A stretch of 64,000 nt of DNA from Anaerolineales bacterium (lineage in GTDB: Bacteria; Chloroflexota; Anaerolineae; Anaerolineales; UBA11579), in NCBI GenBank assembly GCA_019637755.1, contig JAHBVC010000001.1:124001-188000 (forward strand). Reading direction: 5' to 3'. Shown here piece by piece: positions 37,243 through 47,916 of this stretch (its first letter is position 1; each line of letters opens with the position of its first letter). Both the position numbers and the translations under genes were made by a program. Below the pieces are notes generated by a model. That model saw nothing but the letters and a program-made list of their open reading frames with translations, ran no database searches and was not told the origin of the DNA.

Positions 37243-37327
37243 CGCCTGCGCGGGGGGCTTAACGCGACGTGGGTACTATGCTCACGTGTTCAAATCCCTT
37301 TCTTCGTTCCCTAAGGAGGAACATTCT

Positions 37328-38335
37328 ATGAATCGCAAGCTGTACCTTGGCCTCTCCGCTCTGGTGATTGCCGGCGTGCTGCTGGCCGCCTGCGGTGGCG
37401 CTGCCCCCGCTGCCACTGGGGCCCCGGCCGTGGTCGAGACCCAAGCTCCGGCTGAGGCCACCCAGGCTCTTGAGCTGGATCGCTTCAGCCCCTTAGCTGT
37501 TTCCGGTGACATCATCACCGCCGGCAGTTCCACCGTGTTCCCGCTGTCTGAGCGCATGGCGGAGCGCTTCAGCGATGAAGGCTTCAGCGGCAGCATCACC
37601 GTGGATAGCATCGGCTCGGGCGCCGGTATCGAGCGCTTCTGCGTGGCGGGTGACACCGATGTCGCCAATGCCAGCCGCGGCATCAAGGAGAGCGAAGTTG
37701 CCTCCTGCCAGGGCATCGGCCGTGAGCCAATCGAGTTCCGCGTCGGCACCGATGCGCTCTCCATCGTGGTGAGCCAAGCCAATGACTTCATCACCGATGT
37801 CACCACGGAAGAATTGGCCCTGATTTTCGGCGAAGCCACCAACTGGTCTGACGTGCGCCCCGAGTGGCCCAACGAGCCCATCCAGCGCTTTGTGCCTGGC
37901 ACCGACTCGGGCACCTTCGACTACTTCGTCGAGCACGTGTATGACAGTGACGCCACCGTCACCCTGGCTGCTGGCAACACCCAGCGCAGCGAAGATGACA
38001 ACGTTCTGGTACAAGGCATCCAGGGCAGCCCCTACGCCATCGGGTACTTTGGCTACGCCTACTACGCTGAGAATGCTAGCACCCTGCGCATCCTCAGCCT
38101 GGACGGAGTGGAAGCCAATGACGTAACGGTGGAAGACGGCAGCTACGGTTTGGCTCGCCCGCTCTTCCTGTATACCACCGCTGACATCCTGAACGAAAAG
38201 CCGCAGGTGGCTGCGTTCATCAACTTCTACCTCTCTTTCGTCAATGAAGAGATCGTGGATGTGGGCTACTTCCCGGCCAGTGATGCGGCGCTGCAGGCAG
38301 CCTGGGATGCATTCAACGCAGCAGTTGGCGAGTAG
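37328..38335 (+). CDS. pstS: Phosphate ABC transporter substrate-binding lipoprotein
   Basis: A 335-residue protein with signal peptide and lipobox LAAC (Cys near 20). The PstS core shows ITAGSSTVFPLSERMAERF, GSGAGIERFCVAGDTDVANA (phosphate-binding Ser/Gly loop), FVPGTDSGTFDYFVEH and GSPYAIGYFGYAYY. It captures phosphate outside the membrane for PstCAB. AAGGAGG lies 8 nt before ATG 37328. A hairpin follows, probably giving more pstS than permease mRNA. Confidence 0.95.
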   Translation: MNRKLYLGLSALVIAGVLLAACGGAAPAATGAPAVVETQAPAEATQALELDRFSPLAVSGDIITAGSSTVFPLSERMAERFSDEGFSGSITVDSIGSGAGIERFCVAGDTDVANASRGIKESEVASCQGIGREPIEFRVGTDALSIVVSQANDFITDVTTEELALIFGEATNWSDVRPEWPNEPIQRFVPGTDSGTFDYFVEHVYDSDATVTLAAGNTQRSEDDNVLVQGIQGSPYAIGYFGYAYYAENASTLRILSLDGVEANDVTVEDGSYGLARPLFLYTTADILNEKPQVAAFINFYLSFVNEEIVDVGYFPASDAALQAAWDAFNAAVGE

Positions 38336-38361
38336 CTTCTAAGACTCGGCTTCTCCTTCCA

Positions 38362-38399
38362 GATGAGGGCGGTCACAGTTCCTGGCGGCCGCCCTCATC
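38362..38399 (+). terminator. Intercistronic hairpin between pstS and pstC
   Basis: 11-bp perfect arms GATGAGGGCGG / CCGCCCTCATC with a 16-nt loop and no T-run. More likely a processing or stabilising hairpin than a full terminator. Confidence 0.55.
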
Positions 38400-38420
38400 G
38401 CCTGAGTTGGGACAGTTATA

Positions 38421-39617
38421 ATGAAATTTACATTCCCCTCAGAAGCAGGTTCCATGGCTCCGAATTCAAACCCTGCAAGTTTCAGTACGCCTTCGTTGAA
38501 ACGCAAGCCCCGTCTGGTGGAGCTGGTGATCCAGACCGTTTTGTTTTTATGTGGCTTGCTTTCCATTTTTGTTACCGTTGGCATTATTTATGAGCTGGGC
38601 AAAGAATCCATGCTCTTTTTTGGGCGCACTCAGTGGGAGTTGACCAACAAACCCATCGTGGCCGCCATTTCGGCCAGTGATGTGCAATTTGAAGTGGGCA
38701 CCAGTGGTGCCAGCGCCCAAGCGGGCGATGTGCTGCGCCTGGGTGACGAGCTGATGCACCTCGATGCGGTTGAAGGCGCCACGTACTTTGTTGAGCGCGG
38801 CTACCGCGGCAGCCTGCCCGCCGCTCATGCGGCCGGCAGCATCTTGCAGCGTGGTATTGACCCCAGCATCGCTGAATTCCTCACCGGCACCTCATGGGCG
38901 CCGCACGCCGGGCAGTTTGGCGTACTGCCGCTGCTCAACGCCACGCTAATGGTCTCCGGCATCGCCATCCTGGTGGCGCTGCCGCTGGGCTTGGCCTCGG
39001 CGATCTATCTGAGTGAATACGCCTCGCAGAAGGCGCGCAATGCACTCAAGCCAATTCTTGAAGTGCTGGCAGGGGTGCCCACGGTGGTGTATGGCTACTT
39101 TGCGCTCACGTTTATGACGCCGTTCCTGCGTTCCATCTTTGGGCAAGATACAGTGCAGATCTACAACACGGCCTCTGCGGGCATTGTGATTGGCATTCTG
39201 ATCCTGCCACTGGTGAGCACGATCAGTGAAGATGCGCTCAACGCCGTGCCGCGCTCGCTGCGCGAGGCGGCCTACGGCCTGGGCGCCACCAAGCTGGAGA
39301 CGGCGGTACGCGTGGTGCTGCCGGCCGCCTTTTCGGGCATTGCTGCGGCGGTGATCATCGCCATCTCGCGTGCCATCGGTGAGACGATGGTGGTGGCGCT
39401 GGCTGCTGGCGCCGGGCCAGCCTTCACCTTCAACCCCTTCCAGGCCGCCGAAACCATGACCGGGCACATTGTACGCATCAGCGGCGGTGACCTGAGCTAT
39501 GACTCGTTGGACTACAACAGCATCTTTGCCATCGGCCTGATGCTATTTGTGATGACGCTGGCGCTCAACATCTTCAGCCAGTACATCGTGCGCCGCTTCC
39601 GTGAGGTATACGAATGA
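38421..39617 (+). CDS. pstC: Phosphate ABC transporter permease PstC with extracytoplasmic insert
   Basis: A 398-residue permease. The C-terminal 240 residues are typical PstC with the EAA loop ([20 protein letters not shown]). Between TM1 (about 33-57) and TM2 (about 168-190) lies an extra domain of about 75 residues including [18 protein letters not shown] and [19 protein letters not shown], a pattern like the beta motif common in phage tail and adhesin proteins. Normal PstC has about 300-320 residues. ATG 38454 is an alternative start. It overlaps pstA by 4 nt. Confidence 0.93.
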
Positions 39618-40846
39618 GCGCTGAGACGCTGCAGTCCAGCAACCTGCCGCGGCGCCACCGCCTAGGGCGCACCTGGTTGGTGGTCTTTCAGGTGGCGCTG
39701 GTGGTGGGCATCATTGCTCTGTGTGCGCTGCTGTTCAACATCTTTGATGGTTCCTTCGGCTATGTAGCTGTGCAAGACAAAGTGAACCCTGCCAGCCTAG
39801 CCGTGAACGGCGTCGCACTGGAAGAGTTAGACAAGGACACCCTGGTCGAGATCTTGCGTGCGCATGTCTCTGCCGGGCTGATGGCGCGCTATGAGTTTGA
39901 GCGGCCCTTTGCCGAACGCGATGCTGGCGAAGTCTACGATCTCATCCTTGAACGTGTAGTTGCGCCCGAATTTGTTGCGCAATGGTCGCTGTATCAAAGC
40001 CTTACCAACGCGGCGCAGATTCGCCAGACGGTAGCCGAGCAGTACCCGGAAGCACGCCTCGAGTTCCGTAGCTGGCTTAACTGGCACTTTTTGCGTGCGC
40101 CGCAATCCAGCTATCCCGAGATCGCGGGCGTGCGTACCGCCGTGCTTGGCTCGCTGTGGACGATCTCGATTGCGGTGCTGTTTGCCTTTCCGGTGGGGGT
40201 GGCGGCGGCAGTCTATCTGCAGGAGTACGCGCCGGATAACCTCATCAACCGCATCATCCAAACCAATATCACCAACCTGGCTGGCGTGCCCTCGATCATT
40301 TATGGCATCCTCGGTCTGGCGATCTTTGTGCGTGCCCTGGGGCAGATCACCAGCGGGATTGCCTTTGGCCTGAGTGACCCGGCCACCGCCAACGGGCGCA
40401 CGATCCTCTCGGCCGGCCTGACCCTGGGCATGCTGGTACTGCCGCTGATCATCATCAACGCCCAGGAGGCGATCAAGGCGGTGCCCACCTCACTGCGCCA
40501 AGCCAGCTACGGCCTGGGCGCGACGCGCTGGGAGACGGTGTGGCACCATGTGCTGCCCAATGCCTTGCCCGGCATTATGACTGGCACGATCCTGGCCATC
40601 TCGCGCGCCATCGGCGAAACCGCACCGCTGATCGTCATCGGGGCCTCAACCTTTATCCAGGTGGATCCTGAAGGCCCGTTCTCTAAGTTCACTACGCTGC
40701 CGATCCAGATCTATCAGTGGACGGCGCGCCCGCAATCGGTGTTTCGCAACCTGGCCGGTGGCGCCAGCCTGGTGCTGCTGGGCTTGCTGCTCAGCATGAA
40801 CGCCACGGCCATCATTTTGCGCAATCGTTTCCGCAGGAGCCAATAA
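39614..40846 (+). CDS. pstA: Phosphate ABC transporter permease PstA with extracytoplasmic insert
   Basis: A 410-residue permease. The conserved part shows [20 protein letters not shown], the EAA loop [20 protein letters not shown] and [19 protein letters not shown]1 is near 22-44 and the next TM only near 172-192. The roughly 125 residues between are predicted helical ([40 protein letters not shown]) and far exceed the usual loop. It forms the channel with PstC. The start overlaps the pstC stop. Confidence 0.93.
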
Positions 40847-40848
40847 GC

Positions 40849-41649
40849 ATGCCCGAAACTGCTCACAACTCCGCCTTGAATGGGGCGGCAATCGAATCCA
40901 AAGACCTCAGCATCTACTACGGCGATTTTCAAGCCGTGCGGGATGTCAATCTGGATATCCAGACCAATCGCATCACCGCCATCATCGGGCCTTCGGGTTG
41001 CGGCAAGAGCACGGTGTTGCGGGCCTTCAACCGCATGAACGAGCTCATCCCCAACGTAGGCACCAAGGGCGAGGTGCTGTTCCGCGGCCAGAACATCTAT
41101 GCCAACGATGTGGACCCGGTAGAAGTGCGCCGCCGCATCGGCATGGTGTTCCAAAAGCCCAACCCGTTCCCCAAGTCTGTGTACGAGAATGTGGCCTGGG
41201 GGGCTCGCATCAATGGCTTCAAAGGCAATATGGATGAGCTGGTGCACAACAGCCTCAAGGCGGCCGCGCTGTGGGATGAAGTCAAAGATAAGCTTGATCA
41301 GAGCGGCCTGTCACTCTCCGGCGGCCAGCAACAGCGCCTGTGCATTGCGCGCACCATTGCCGTGCGCCCCGACATCATCCTGATGGATGAGCCGTGCTCG
41401 GCGCTGGACCCTATCGCCACCTTGCGCATCGAGGAGCTGATGCGCGACCTGGCCACCGAGTACACCATCATCATCGTGACCCACAACATGCAGCAGGCCG
41501 CCCGCGTATCCGACCGCACGGCGTTCTTCTCGCTGTCTGAGGATGGCAAGCGTGCCGGCATGCTGATGGAGTACGGTGACACCAAGACCATGTTTACGCG
41601 GCCAGAGAAGAAGATCACGGAAGATTACATCACTGGCCGTTTCGGATAA
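40849..41649 (+). CDS. pstB: Phosphate ABC transporter ATP-binding protein
   Basis: A 266-residue ABC ATPase of normal size: Walker [30 protein letters not shown] (PstB-type Q-loop), signature LSGGQQQRL, Walker [14 protein letters not shown] and the H-loop VTHNM. It powers PstCA. GCAGGAG precedes ATG 40849; the frame is open further upstream only inside pstA. No phoU gene follows. Confidence 0.96.
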
Positions 41650-41663
41650 ACGTACGAGGCTGC

Positions 41664-42083
41664 ATGCAACGCAAACGAGTTCTGTTTCTGTGCACTGGAA
41701 ATACCTGCCGCTCACAGATGGCAGAAGCGATTGTGAATGCCCGGCTGGGTGACCGCTGGCAGGCGTTTAGTGCCGGCGTGAGCCCGGCCGCTGCGATTAA
41801 CCCCTATACCACCAAAGCCTTAGCTGAGCTCGGCATTGTGCATCTGGGCGAGCCCAAAGCCCCGGATGTCTTTCAAGGCCAACACTTTGACCTGGTGGTG
41901 ACGCTGTGCGCCGATGCTGACGAGAATTGCCCAACCTGGCTGGGCTCGGCAGGGGAGCGCCAGCATCTCGGCTTCCCGGATCCTGCTACGGCACGCGGCA
42001 GCGAGGAGCAGATCATGCCGATCTACCGCCAGGTGCTTAAGGACATTGCGGCTAAAGTGCCGGCGCTGTTGGAGAGTAGATAG
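41664..42083 (+). CDS. arsC: Arsenate reductase, low-molecular-weight phosphatase fold
   Basis: A 139-residue protein: P-loop CTGNTCRSQ (C10-X5-R16), the two further Cys of thioredoxin-coupled ArsC in [13 protein letters not shown], and the FPDPA acid loop. It reduces arsenate to arsenite. A protein-tyrosine phosphatase is the alternative, but the ADADENCP pattern favours ArsC. It starts 14 nt after pstB, which makes sense because arsenate enters through Pst. No arsenite exporter is seen in the window. Confidence 0.88.
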
Positions 42084-42164: not shown

Positions 42165-43793
42165 TTAAGCCAACCTCAGCCACTCGTAGCCATGTGCCGG
42201 CAAATGCAAATGCAGGCGGCCGTCTACCAGGTCGCCGGTGGCGCGGCCAGTGAACAAATTGGGCGGGGGGAAGAAAATATCACGCGGTGGCAACTCCACC
42301 CACAGGTCAATCGGCTCAGCACTGAGGTTATTCAGGATAAGTAGCTCCTCGCCCTCAAAGCGCCGGAAGTACGCGGCCACCTGGGTGGGGTGCGAGCTAG
42401 TGGCCCATTCAAAGTCACCCCAACCAAAGGCACGGTGCGTCTTGCGCACCGCGATCATGTTCTTCGTCATGTAATACAGCGAGGCCAGGTCTTTCATCTG
42501 GTCTGCTACGTTCACATGGGCAGGGTCGTAGGGCGCGGTGCTGATGACGGGCGAATAGGTGCTGGCGGCGGAGCTGAAGCCGGCCTGCGGGCTGGCGTCC
42601 CACTGCATCGGAGTGCGCACACCGTCGCGATCCTTGAGCCAGATGTCATCGCCCATGCCGATCTCGTCGCCGTAATACACGATCGGTGAGCCGGGCAGGG
42701 TGAACAGCAGCGAATTGGCCAGCACAATCTTGTGGAAGTCGTTATCCAGCAGCGGCGCCAGGCGGCGACGGATGCCTAGGTTGAGGCGCATGCGTGGCTC
42801 AGGGGCGTACTGCTGCCACATCCACTGGCGCTCCTCCTCGGTCACCATTTCCAAGGTGAGCTCATCGTGATTTCGTAGGAAGATACACCATTGCGCTTTC
42901 TCCGGGATCTGTGGTGTGCGCGCCAGAATCTCGCGTATCGGCGTGGTGTCTTGCTTGCGCAGCGCCATAAACAAGCGCGGCATCACCGGAAAATGAAAGG
43001 CCATGTGCATTTCATCGCCATCTTCACCGAAGTATTCGCGCACGTCCTCGGGCCACTGGTTGGCCTCAGAGAGCAAAATAGCTTCGGGCGAGTGCTGCTC
43101 TACGCCACGGCGTAATTGCTTGAGGTAGGCGTGCGTCTCAGGCAGGTTTTCGCAGTTGGTGCCCTCGCGCTCAAATAGGTAGGGGATCGCATCGCAGCGG
43201 AAGCCGTCAATGCCCATATCCAGCCAGAATTTGGCCACTGCCAGCATCGCCTGCTGCACTTCGGGATTGTCGTAGTTTAGATCCGGCTGCGAACTGTAAA
43301 AGCGGTGCCAGAAGAAGCGCTTGGCTTGCTCGTCCCAACTCCAATTGGATTTTTCGGTATCCAGGAAGATGATGCGCGTATCGCGGTACTTATCCTGTGC
43401 ATCGCTCCACACATAATAGTCGTGTTTCGGGTGGTCTTTGCCCTGGCGGGCTTCCTGAAACCAGGGATGCTGATCGGAGGTGTGGTTCAGCACCAGATCG
43501 GCAATCACGCGGATGCCGCGGGCGTGCGCCTGGTCTACCAGCTCTTTGAAGTCCTGCAGAGTGCCATAATCCGTATGGATGTTATAAAAATCGGCGACAT
43601 CGTAGCCATCGTCTTTGAGTGGGGAGGGGAACATGGGCAGCAGCCAGATGCAGTTGATACCCAGGTCTTGCAAATAATCGAGCTTCTCGATGACGCCGCG
43701 CAGATCACCGTGGCCATCGCCGTTGCTATCCTTGAAGGCGCGGATATAGAGTTCGTAGAAAATGGCGTCTTTGTACCACAGAGGAGTTTGCAT
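42165..43793 (-). CDS. treS: Trehalose synthase (maltose alpha-D-glucosyltransferase), GH13
   Basis: A 542-residue GH13 enzyme. It begins [20 protein letters not shown] and has the four GH13 regions: [32 protein letters not shown] (nucleophile Asp), LLSEANQW (acid/base Glu) and [12 protein letters not shown] (transition-state Asp). The [17 protein letters not shown] segment is characteristic of TreS, which interconverts maltose and trehalose. It lies downstream of an alpha-glucoside-type ABC importer. AATAAT ends 7 nt before ATG 43793, with no Shine-Dalgarno. Confidence 0.93.
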
Positions 43794-44094: not shown

Positions 44095-45282
44095 TTAACC
44101 CTTCACCGCACCGGAGAGCAGGCCGCGGACGAAGAAGCGTTGGAAGCCAAAGAAAACCAGCATCGGCAGCAGCATCGAAAGGAACGCGGACGCCGTGAGC
44201 AGATGCCAGCCGCCGCCCAGCGATTGCACCAGGCCGTTGATCTGATAGGTCAGCACCGGCTGGCGGCCGGAGAGGAACACCAGCGCTACGAGCAGATCAT
44301 TCCACACCCACAGGAACTGGAAGATGGCCAGCGACGCCAGCGCCGGCATAGAGAGTGGTAGCGCCAAGCGCGTGAAGGCGGTCCAATGGCTGGCGCCGTC
44401 CAGATAGGCGGACTCGAACAGATCGCGCGGCAGCGAGCCGATGAAGTTGCGCATCAGGAAGATGGCGTAGGGCAGGCCGAAGCCAGTGTGGAACAGCCAA
44501 ACGCCCAGGAAACTGCTGCTGAGCCCCAACTGCTGGTACAGCTTGGATATCGGCACCAGGGTCATTTGCAACGGCACGATCTGCAAACCCACCAGCAGCG
44601 CAAACAGCCACATGCGCCCGGGGAAGTGCAGCCACGAGAAGGCATAGGCGGCCAGCGCAGCGAAGATCAGCGGCAGGATCGTAGCCGGAATGGTGACGAT
44701 CAGCGTGTTCACAAACGCGCGCGCCATGCCGCGGCTGTTGCCAAGATCGCTGGCAAAGTCACAGGTCAAATCGGCCGATTGGGTGCCGGCGGCGCAGTCT
44801 TGCTCGTAGCTGGTGCGGCCGCGGTAGCCCACCAGCGCATCCACATAGTTGCTCAAAGTGAAGCGCGGGCGCGCTTCCACACCCGCAAAGCCGCGCAGCT
44901 GCGTCAGGATGTCAGCCAGTTGCTGGGCATCCGGGCGCTGGTCTTCGGGCACATGGATGCTGCCATCCGGCAGGGTGTTATCAAAGGTCGCAGCGAGCTG
45001 CACCGAGCGGCGAAACAGGGCCACATATTCGGGATTGCTGAAATCCGCCGCGGCAATTGCATCGCCAGCCGGGCCGTGGCAGCCGGCACAAAATTGGGTG
45101 TACTCTGCGCCCGCCTTGGGGGTCGAGAAGGCCGTCCACCATCCGCTGGTATTGGCATCTTGCACGGGGCGGAAGGAGGTGACCAGCAGGCCGAGGGTAG
45201 GCAGCAGCCAGGCGACGGCCATGGCAATCACCAGGACGTGCAATGGCAGGCTGGAGAGGAAACGTTTCATGCGTTCGCTCAT
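44095..45282 (-). CDS. MalG-type sugar ABC permease with inserted CxxCH domain
   Basis: A 395-residue permease. TM1 is at about 12-34, followed by SFRPVQDANTSGWWTAF as in alpha-glucoside permeases. Then residues about 56-138 are an insertion with YTQFCAGCHGPAGDA (C65, C68, H69), FSNPEYVALFRRSVQL and a final helix PDAQQLADILTQL, the layout of a small c-type cytochrome. The permease resumes at FTLSNYVDAL; a second short insert (about 155-182) has two Cys. The EAA loop is DLFESAYLDGASHWTAFTRL. No Met occurs in residues 70-138; His110 could be the second haem ligand. Typical MalG has about 280 residues. Confidence 0.88.
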   Translation of the reverse strand: MSERMKRFLSSLPLHVLVIAMAVAWLLPTLGLLVTSFRPVQDANTSGWWTAFSTPKAGAEYTQFCAGCHGPAGDAIAAADFSNPEYVALFRRSVQLAATFDNTLPDGSIHVPEDQRPDAQQLADILTQLRGFAGVEARPRFTLSNYVDALVGYRGRTSYEQDCAAGTQSADLTCDFASDLGNSRGMARAFVNTLIVTIPATILPLIFAALAAYAFSWLHFPGRMWLFALLVGLQIVPLQMTLVPISKLYQQLGLSSSFLGVWLFHTGFGLPYAIFLMRNFIGSLPRDLFESAYLDGASHWTAFTRLALPLSMPALASLAIFQFLWVWNDLLVALVFLSGRQPVLTYQINGLVQSLGGGWHLLTASAFLSMLLPMLVFFGFQRFFVRGLLSGAVKG

Positions 45283-45297
45283 ACGCTATCGATGCGG

Positions 45298-46284
45298 CTA
45301 GCGCATCGCCTCCTGTTCACGGAAGCGCTTGATGTTGAGGATCATGAAGGGAATGATTGCCAGCACCAGCACCATCGCCACGGCGGTGCCGCGGCCAGTT
45401 TGCTGGTTGACGTACATCTCCGCATACATGCGGTTGGCGATCACATCGGTGCTGTAGTTGCCGCCCGTCATCACAAACACAATGTCGAAGATCTTGAGCG
45501 TATTGATCACCATGGTGGTGATCACGACGACGAGCGTTGGCAAGATCACCGGCACGGTGATCTTCCAAAAGGCGGTCCATTCCGTGGCGCCATCCATCCG
45601 CGCAGCCTCTAGCAGCTCCGAGGGCACACTTTTGATCCCCGCTGAGAGGATCACCATGCAGAAGCCGGCCCACATCCAGATGCCCACGACGATGAGCATA
45701 AAGGTATTGAGGGGGATGCGCGTCATGAACGAAATCGGCTCACCGCCCAGCCCGCGCACGATGGCGTTGAGTAGGCCGATCTGCGTTGCATCTGTGCCGA
45801 AGTGATAAACAAATTTCCAGATCACGCCAGCGCCCACGAACGAAATCGCCATGGGCAGAAAGATGATGGATTTAGCGAGTGACTCATACTTGACCTTATC
45901 AGCCAGCACAGCCATTAGCAAGCCCAGGCTCACCGCGCCGGTCACCAGGCCCAGGATCCACTTGAGATTATTGCCAAAGGAAGAGATCCAGAACGTGCGC
46001 CAGATAGTGGTGAGGCTGCTGGTATCCAACTCACTGGTGAGGGCATAGCGGTAATTCTCGAAAATGCCCCAGCAGGGGCGGCCCTCTACGCACAGGCTTG
46101 AGGCCCAACGCAGCGAATCTTTGTCCAGCAGGCTGAGGTAGAAGGTGTTAAAGGCAGGATAGACAATATAGATCAGGATAATGATGAGGGCTGGCGCCAG
46201 GTAAAGCCAGGGCGCCACGCGGCCTTGCCGCATGATGTTAGGGATGCGCTCGCTCACAAGGATCTCCTCCTCTCGCGTTGCCAA
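45298..46284 (-). CDS. MalF-type sugar ABC permease
   Basis: A 328-residue permease with six TM segments, the first at about 24-46. The EAA loop is SELLEAARMDGATEWTAFWK, and the end has GRGTAVAMVLVLAIIPFMIL. The TM1-TM2 loop (about 48-100) includes SLRWASSLCVEGRPCWGIFE with two Cys, as in other alpha-glucoside MalF proteins. It pairs with the MalG-like gene 15 nt downstream. The ATPase is not encoded nearby. Confidence 0.9.
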   Translation of the reverse strand: MATREEEILVSERIPNIMRQGRVAPWLYLAPALIIILIYIVYPAFNTFYLSLLDKDSLRWASSLCVEGRPCWGIFENYRYALTSELDTSSLTTIWRTFWISSFGNNLKWILGLVTGAVSLGLLMAVLADKVKYESLAKSIIFLPMAISFVGAGVIWKFVYHFGTDATQIGLLNAIVRGLGGEPISFMTRIPLNTFMLIVVGIWMWAGFCMVILSAGIKSVPSELLEAARMDGATEWTAFWKITVPVILPTLVVVITTMVINTLKIFDIVFVMTGGNYSTDVIANRMYAEMYVNQQTGRGTAVAMVLVLAIIPFMILNIKRFREQEAMR

Positions 46285-46343: not shown

Positions 46344-47687
46344 CTAGTTGCCTTGGTCAGCTGCCTGCGCATCCGCAGCGCCTGCCAGGGCGGCATCGAT
46401 GCTGGAGGCACCGCTCACCACGTCCACGATGGCGCGCCATTCAGCGGAGCCAAAGCTGGGCTGAATGCTGTCGCCAATGTCCGGCGTGGCTGCGCTGGCG
46501 CCGGCCAGCACTTCCGCCAACGCCGCGTTGATCGGGTCAGCATAGTTGCCGGCCGAACCGCTGTTGGGGGAGAGGCCGAAGCCGGTAGCAGCCCAGTGGG
46601 CGCCACCCTCGGCGCTGGTCAGGTAGGCCACGATGGCGCGTACCGCCGGCGTGTCGGCAAAGGCCATCATCCAGTCCGCACCACCCTGAACGCCATCGGC
46701 GCCGGGGAAGTGGAAGAAGCTGAAGTCAGTGCCGAACTCAAGCTCGGGGTACTGCGCCGCAATGGCGCCGCCCGCAAAGCCAGACTGCTTGACCATCATC
46801 GCCTGCGGCGGGTCGCTGAACGGTTGCAGGATCGCATCGCTGAAGCTGGTGCTCAACGAGCCTTCCGCGCCACCCACGGCATAGGCCGGGTCAGTTGCCC
46901 AGCCGGCGTACACACCATACGCATCGGCCACGCCCGCATCGTTGTAGGCTACGCTGCCATCCAGGATGCCATTGACGTAAGCGCTGCCTTGCGTGGAGAG
47001 CAAGATGTCCTGAATGAAGTCGGAAGCCGTCCAGCCAGTGGCGTCACCGCTTTCGAAGCCCATGGCAAACGGTACGTTGCCATCGGCCACCATTTGATCG
47101 GCCAGGGCAACAAAGTCGGCCCAGGTGGTGGGCACGCTGTAGCCATTGGCGTCAAAGTTCACCGGGCTGTACCAAACGATCGACTTGGGGTCGGCCTTGA
47201 CGGCCACGCCCAGCCAATTGCCATTGCCACTGGCCATCCAGGCCGGGGCATAGTTAGCGGCATCCGCGCCCAGAGTGTCCAGCGCGATCAGCTTGTCGCC
47301 ATACGAACCGATCGGGCCGACCGTGGGCCAGAACACCAGGTCCCAGGCGTCACCCGATTCGATGCGGGTTTCCAGCAGCGCCTGATCACGTGAGGATTCG
47401 GGCACGATCGTCAGACCGCAGGCTTCCACGATCGGGGCGATGGCGGCGTTGAAGCTTTCTTCCTCAGCACCAGACCATTGATAGAGCAAAGTGACTTCGT
47501 CGCCGGGTTGGGCGCCGTAGCACATGTCCATCTCCGTGCCTTCATCGGTTGTGGGAGCTTCCGTGGCGCTGCTGGGCTCGCTAGGAGCCTCAGTGACCAC
47601 CGGGTTGGGGCTGCCGCAGGCCGCCAAAACCAGGGCGAGCGCGGTAAGCAGGCCAAAGAGCTGCATCAAAGATTGGGAACGTTTCAT
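46344..47687 (-). CDS. Alpha-glucoside-type ABC substrate-binding lipoprotein
   Basis: A 447-residue protein with signal peptide and lipobox LAAC (Cys near 24) followed by a Pro/Thr/Glu spacer. The mature part is a family 1 binding protein (VTLLYQWSGAEEESFNAAIA near 65, WPTVGPIGSYGDKLIALDTL, DWMMAFADTPAVRAIVAYL). With MalF, MalG and TreS downstream it probably binds maltose, trehalose or a related alpha-glucoside. GGAGAG lies 8 nt before ATG 47687; the frame is open to 47765 but that part is not a signal peptide. Confidence 0.88.
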   Translation of the reverse strand: MKRSQSLMQLFGLLTALALVLAACGSPNPVVTEAPSEPSSATEAPTTDEGTEMDMCYGAQPGDEVTLLYQWSGAEEESFNAAIAPIVEACGLTIVPESSRDQALLETRIESGDAWDLVFWPTVGPIGSYGDKLIALDTLGADAANYAPAWMASGNGNWLGVAVKADPKSIVWYSPVNFDANGYSVPTTWADFVALADQMVADGNVPFAMGFESGDATGWTASDFIQDILLSTQGSAYVNGILDGSVAYNDAGVADAYGVYAGWATDPAYAVGGAEGSLSTSFSDAILQPFSDPPQAMMVKQSGFAGGAIAAQYPELEFGTDFSFFHFPGADGVQGGADWMMAFADTPAVRAIVAYLTSAEGGAHWAATGFGLSPNSGSAGNYADPINAALAEVLAGASAATPDIGDSIQPSFGSAEWRAIVDVVSGASSIDAALAGAADAQAADQGN

Positions 47688-47916
47688 AAAAGACTCTCCT
47701 TTGCAAAGAGTAAGTGATGAAAGGGATGTTGCGTGGTAAAGGCGATTCTTTTTGACCTCCAGCAAAGATTTTTGAAGCCCGGTAGGGGCGTCAAAGCAAG
47801 CGTGGGTCTCGCCGAAAAGGATACGTCTGAGTTAGTAAGTCGCGGCGAGAGTGAGCCGTGCAGGGGATCGGCCATACCAGCGACCCCACACTGTTGGCTG
47901 CAACTATGGTACTACG
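47688..47916. other. Intergenic region without recognised features
   Basis: About 230 bp between the binding-protein start and the CNNM stop. It presumably holds the importer promoter, but no convincing -35/-10 pair or operator was picked out. No frame looks coding. Confidence 0.4.

Follow-up and report, generated by a model that had tools for sequence, protein, structure and literature searches.

A predicted class-I cytochrome c domain inserted in an ABC sugar permease of Anaerolineae, and its possible role as a redox switch

Does an ABC sugar importer carry a covalently bound haem, and what would a haem do in such a transporter? We know of no redox cofactor in ABC sugar importers, and the question is raised by one gene in a stretch of 64,000 nucleotides, hereafter the window, from the genome of an Anaerolineales bacterium (assembly GCA_019637755.1, contig JAHBVC010000001.1). 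In the original prediction, made from the letters of the DNA, this gene was described as a MalG-like open reading frame of 395 residues with a c-type cytochrome-like insert in the first extracytoplasmic loop of its product. The reading frame was confirmed at this length, and it lies on the minus strand, which had not been given. The permease and its parts are the following:

44095 to 45282, minus strand: ABC sugar permease of the MalG/SugB type that carries a cytochrome c domain as an insert, 395 residues from an ATG start (open reading frame and translation).
45178 to 45243, minus strand: first transmembrane helix (TM1), residues about 14-35, a helix in the full-length model (of low overall confidence), hydrophobic and kept in all orthologues.
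44869 to 45129, minus strand: predicted class-I cytochrome c domain of about 87 residues (residues about 52-138), from the AlphaFold2 model, structural matches, PF13442 and its absence as a block in 15 orthologues.
45076 to 45090, minus strand: haem c attachment motif C65-A-G-C68-H69, from the translation, invariant in 63 of 63 sequences.
44953 to 44955, minus strand: His110, which occurs in 62 of 63 sequences and is the candidate for the sixth ligand of the haem; the GQMP segment of CcoP is aligned here by profile.
44761 to 44796, minus strand: extracytoplasmic Cys loop C163-C174, invariant with and without the haem domain; outgroup permeases lack it.
44119 to 44664, minus strand: BPD_transp_1 ABC importer transmembrane domain, residues 207-388 (Pfam).

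The transmembrane domain matches the Pfam family BPD_transp_1 with an E-value of 7.5e-14 (52.3 bits, cut-off 26.4), and among solved structures in the PDB the permease part is closest to the SugB subunit of the trehalose importer of mycobacteria (E 3.1e-29), followed by MalG of E. coli (E 1.1e-18). TM1 and TM2 are joined by a long extracytoplasmic loop in which the cytochrome c-like domain comes first and the short Cys loop follows; C163 and C174 of the latter probably form a disulfide. A frameshift or gene-fusion artefact was ruled out, given that an identical, uninterrupted architecture is found in 62 public genomes.

The motif CAGCH was found in the translation at residues 65-69 of the first extracytoplasmic loop, where it had been predicted, and its conservation rules out a chance occurrence of CxxCH. 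By itself, the window protein is a sub-threshold match to Cytochrome_CBB3 (PF13442) in Pfam, with an E-value of 0.025 and 15.3 bits against a cut-off of 27. When the domain sequences of the window and of its 62 insert-bearing orthologues were used in profile searches, 61 of the 63 matched PF13442 at E<=0.01 (best 1.1e-8) and 43 matched PF00034; the orthologue of Thermanaerothrix daxensis exceeds the Pfam cut-off, with 27.3 bits over residues 56-128, nearly the entire domain. The profile of the family also retrieves CcoP of the cbb3 oxidases from the PDB (E 1.4e-5). An AlphaFold2 model of the loop region obtained with the 63 sequences has a pLDDT of 88, reaching 93-95 in the core, and the expected helices are present; for residues 52-137 of this model the matches listed by VIA-align are cytochromes c or cytochrome c domains, the best with a Z of 7.3. 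The fold call rests on the agreement among these matches and on the sequence evidence, because the Foldseek E-values are weak (best 0.19); the full-length AlphaFold2 model, made with 15 close sequences, has a pLDDT of 54 and was left out of the fold assignment. The profile matches, the loop model and its structural matches bear out the cytochrome c-like insert that the original prediction had placed at residues 56-138. On the basis of sequence and modelling, we assign the insert between TM1 and TM2 as a class-I cytochrome c domain. That the permease carries a covalent haem is well supported, without biochemistry, and we consider it very likely; haem attachment, ligation and redox potential have not been measured.

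The identity of the sixth ligand is less typical. As had been noted, no Met follows the haem motif within the insert of the window protein, and His110, or else an open position, had been suggested for the ligand. This residue is kept in 62 of the 63 insert-bearing sequences, and in the profile alignment it lies in a segment, NGQPH, that is paired with NGQMP of CcoP, so the candidate is supported. The neighbouring residue 111 is Met in 38 of the 63 sequences, Leu in 15 and Val in 7. Locus L086 (L086:8106-8540) is the sole insert-bearing sequence without His110 and represents a natural swap of the sixth-ligand region, with NGQMP, the usual Met-ligand motif, replacing NGQPHM. A Met sixth ligand is therefore a criterion that the window domain does not meet, and that is met solely by L086 among the 63. 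Class-I cytochromes c with sixth ligands other than Met exist, and for this reason the absence of the Met makes the domain less typical, yet still class I.

A scan of 84,980 species genomes with two peptide patterns, by which distant relatives can be missed, yielded 77 loci, all of them with Chloroflexota titles. The insert is present in 62 of these loci, whereas in the remaining 15 the entire domain is missing as a block. Orthologues bearing the insert without CxxCH had been named as a result that would refute the haem; there were none among the 62, all of which have CxxCHG, as do 63 of 63 sequences when the window is counted. The residues C65, C68, H69, G70, P117, C163 and C174 are invariant over the 63 sequences, whose loops share 34-91% identity. 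Judged from this alignment, the haem motif and the position of the sixth ligand are subject to strong selection. Among 396 genomes sampled from the class, 26 had the haem domain (CxxCH in all of those read) and two matches lacked it; among 400 genomes sampled from the phylum, the haem domain was confined to the order to which the window belongs. According to the scan and the genome samples, the cytochrome-bearing permease is restricted to the class Anaerolineae; its carriers include the cultured T. daxensis and Pelolinea submarina.

The history of the domain could not be resolved from the C-terminal part of the permease alone, since in this tree single and several losses are both compatible with the data (AU p 0.54 and 0.62). 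A second tree was obtained from the concatenated permease, MalF and binding protein (978 columns), which assumes that the three genes share their history. In this operon tree the domain-less orthologues fall within the haem clade at two or more positions, and the topologies in which all haem rows, or all domain-less rows, form one clade are rejected (AU p far below 0.001). From these sequence comparisons the simplest reading is a single gain followed by at least two independent losses. At the insert site, the outgroup permeases L022-L025 have a short loop, and L026-L036 have a different domain without haem. The latter are Anaerolineae relatives (e.g. L026:1501-2610, minus strand) whose TM1-TM2 loop holds a domain of similar size, which marks the loop as a hot spot where domains are inserted.

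A covalent haem c depends on its maturation, and the lack of a cytochrome c maturation system in the genome had also been stated as a refutation. A System I is present: CcmC, CcmF and CcmE were identified by profile in the genome of the window, and beside them there are CcmG/CcmH-like reading frames, recognized by position and motif. This genome also has several class-I cytochromes c and a haem-copper oxidase. Co-occurrence was evaluated in 50 genomes, 35 with the domain and 15 without it. A PF00034 class-I cytochrome c was found in 30 of the 35 versus none of the 15 (Fisher p 7e-9, uncorrected for kinship), a haem-copper oxidase in 25 of the 35 versus 2 of the 15, and Ccm in 33 of the 35 versus 8 of the 15; the last two comparisons are likewise not independent of kinship. 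The domain has thus been lost together with the cytochromes, which points to a dependence on c-type haem biology; this co-loss rests on two or three events, which is not enough for a test corrected for the tree. No Ccm match was obtained in two of the 35 insert-bearing genomes examined (L081 and L046), which are probably incomplete metagenome-assembled genomes. Among the domain-bearing species, T. daxensis was described as a fermenter, yet its published respiratory chain includes ACIII and oxidases (PMC4653793).

P. submarina, for which a complete genome is available, and three relatives keep the domain, and no PF00034 protein and no haem-copper oxidase were found in them by profile search. 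Their lone PF13442 match is the haem permease itself, as established by comparing its coordinates with those of the genome scan. It follows that a class-I cytochrome partner is not strictly needed. P. submarina has a Ccm operon. A search for a single spacing pattern gave one or two multihaem-like matches per genome of the Pelolinea group; a match with a pair of CxxCH motifs (CTQCHDPHSLHM) is conserved in L149 (P. submarina, around C1:1062802), L148 and L152, and it is possible that it represents a multihaem protein, a further client of the Ccm system of Pelolinea.

The genes that accompany the permease bear on the sugar that is imported:

46344 to 47765, minus strand: sugar-binding lipoprotein, nearest solved relative AcbH (E 8.9e-11), conserved in the operon.
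45298 to 46284, minus strand: partner permease of the MalF type (BPD_transp_1, E 2.2e-19), always adjoining the haem permease, with C65/C71.
42165 to 43793, minus strand: TreS, trehalose synthase / maltose alpha-D-glucosyltransferase, the downstream gene of the operon (TIGR02456, 817.7 bits, cut-off 678).

The order binding protein, MalF, cytochrome-bearing MalG and TreS is kept in most loci: the MalF-type and binding-protein genes are directly upstream of the haem permease in the window and in almost every locus whose sequence extends far enough, and TreS is downstream in most. Importers without the haem domain retain the same operon. Upstream, LacI-type regulators are present at the loci inspected, and the operon showed no ATPase gene. 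At L047:9432-10895 a trehalase/MGH1-like glycosidase lies between the haem permease and TreS, and a gap of similar size occurs at other loci. From TreS, the trehalase-like gene and the LacI-type regulators we infer, without a transport assay, that the importer probably takes up trehalose, maltose or another alpha-glucoside. The partner had been called a normal MalF. It is indeed a MalF-type BPD_transp_1 permease; nonetheless, its first extracytoplasmic loop has a pair of cysteines, C65/C71, invariant throughout the clade, with and without the haem domain in the adjoining permease, and missing in outgroup MalF proteins. The outer face of the importer hence displays two conserved Cys pairs, C65/C71 of MalF and C163/C174 of the haem permease. 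Beside the operon, at positions 37286-42083 of the window, there are genes of a pst phosphate importer (PstS, two permeases and PstB), syntenic in the genus, and after them, within the same interval, a gene similar to those of low-molecular-weight phosphatases and arsenate reductases.

Regarding the role of the haem, we tentatively favor, with somewhat less than even confidence, that the domain is an extracytoplasmic redox switch on import of the trehalose/maltose type; this role is inferred, and an effect on transport has not been measured. The covalent haem c of the permease would lie on the outer face of the cytoplasmic membrane, and it is inferred to be six-coordinate and redox active. As a one-electron switch, its oxidation state would track the extracytoplasmic electron-transfer pool, i.e. 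cytochromes, quinol-linked enzymes and diffusible redox compounds. A redox-dependent change of the haem pocket (His or Met ligation) could then shift TM1 or alter how the binding protein docks, and would thereby turn import of the substrate, an alpha-glucoside that is probably trehalose or maltose, up or down to match the capacity for respiration. The specific claim that a sugar ABC importer is gated directly by the redox state of its own covalent cytochrome c, without a signalling cascade, is advanced with slightly more reserve. The full-length model is poor (pLDDT 54), and no contact of the domain with the transport core can be derived from it.

The fold and the ligands of the domain are also those of electron-transfer cytochromes c, and its loss coincides with the loss of other class-I cytochromes c; accordingly, it could be an ordinary carrier tethered to an abundant membrane protein, relaying electrons between an extracytoplasmic dehydrogenase or a quinol:cytochrome c oxidoreductase and an acceptor, without any effect on transport. 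We consider this unlikely, given that a carrier has no need to remain, class-wide, in a single sugar permease beside TreS, and that Pelolinea and its close relatives keep the domain without any other recognisable class-I cytochrome c or haem-copper oxidase. This retention argues against a simple relay, and because of it a sensor is ranked above a tether. A purely structural function is in our judgement equally doubtful: the haem would merely stabilise a small domain in an insertion-prone loop, and the domain would position the sugar-binding protein, in a manner comparable to the P2 loop of E. coli MalF. Relatives from Anaerolineae with a haem-free domain in the TM1-TM2 loop, or with none, and the identical operon of the domain-less importers are in agreement with such a docking function; on the other hand, decay of CxxCH while the domain persists was seen in 0 of 62 loci, and the sixth ligand is retained, with His exchanged for Met once. 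The sequence of a docking domain would be free to drift until no haem is bound, and the strict coupling of motif and domain speaks against a mere scaffold.

A different kind of sensing would arise if His110 were released from the haem so that NO, CO or O2 could bind and gate uptake. Sensor domains with c-type haem and NO-binding properties are known (PMC12889525), and the variation of Met111, the residue beside His110, leaves room for a weak sixth ligand. The near-invariance of His110 and its exchange for Met suggest instead a six-coordinate haem of the electron-transfer type, and no companion signalling gene was seen, which makes a gas or radical sensor a rather improbable reading. It is very hard to sustain that the insertion is vestigial, with the domain folded and the haem absent: the weak Pfam scores of the window protein itself would allow it, but motif and ligand are strictly conserved, Ccm is present, and the domain is lost solely as an entire block.

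In the open-access PMC literature, we found no description of an ABC sugar permease that carries a cytochrome c domain; the transporter domain and cytochrome c are both known, and the combination is new. If a conserved haem c is indeed present in an importer of dozens of Anaerolineae genomes, it would connect carbon uptake with the electron-transfer chain directly, and the entry of sugar into these Chloroflexota may be tied to the redox state outside the cell membrane. It would also mean that transporter loops can accept cytochrome c domains, and that such domains can be lost cleanly when a lineage abandons cytochromes. Gating of the importer by its own haem, if true, would make a primary transporter a sensor of the state of extracytoplasmic electron transfer. 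The haem importer can be tested in cultured organisms, T. daxensis and P. submarina.

The domain shares with class-I cytochromes c (PF13442/PF00034; CcoP of cbb3 oxidase, cytochrome c6, OmcF) the CxxCHG after the first helix, a helix at the C terminus, the position of the sixth ligand within an NGQ segment, and the predicted fold; it differs in being embedded in a transporter and in that the sixth ligand is most likely His110, not Met. With the MalG/SugB permeases (MalFGK2, LpqY-SugABC) the window protein has in common the transmembrane domain, and its gene is ordered in the same way relative to those of the sugar-binding protein and the MalF-type partner; in SugB and MalG the TM1-TM2 loop is short, whereas here it holds a class-I cytochrome c domain and a Cys loop. 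The ABC sugar permease MalF of E. coli likewise accommodates a folded domain, the P2 loop, within an extracytoplasmic loop; in contrast with the domain described here, P2 is haem-free and lies between other helices. Chemoreceptors of Geobacter and Desulfovibrio have c-haem sensor domains between transmembrane helices (PMC8396549). These sensors (GSU0582, GSU0935, DcrA) resemble the window permease in having a single covalent haem c outside the membrane, between two transmembrane helices (PMC8396549, PMC12889525), and haem Cache domains also have a single covalent haem c outside the membrane (PMC12889525). However, the chemoreceptor sensors and the haem Cache domains have PAS or Cache folds and signalling domains, whereas in the window permease a transport domain is coupled to what is predicted to be a genuine cytochrome c fold; Pfam detected no signalling output domain (HAMP/MCP, kinase or cyclase) in it, the remainder of the protein being the transport domain. 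The permease is therefore no member of that class, yet it can act like a sensor of this type. By analogy, the proposed switch would correspond to the c-haem sensors of GSU0935 and DcrA, but acting on the transporter directly and not on a signalling module.
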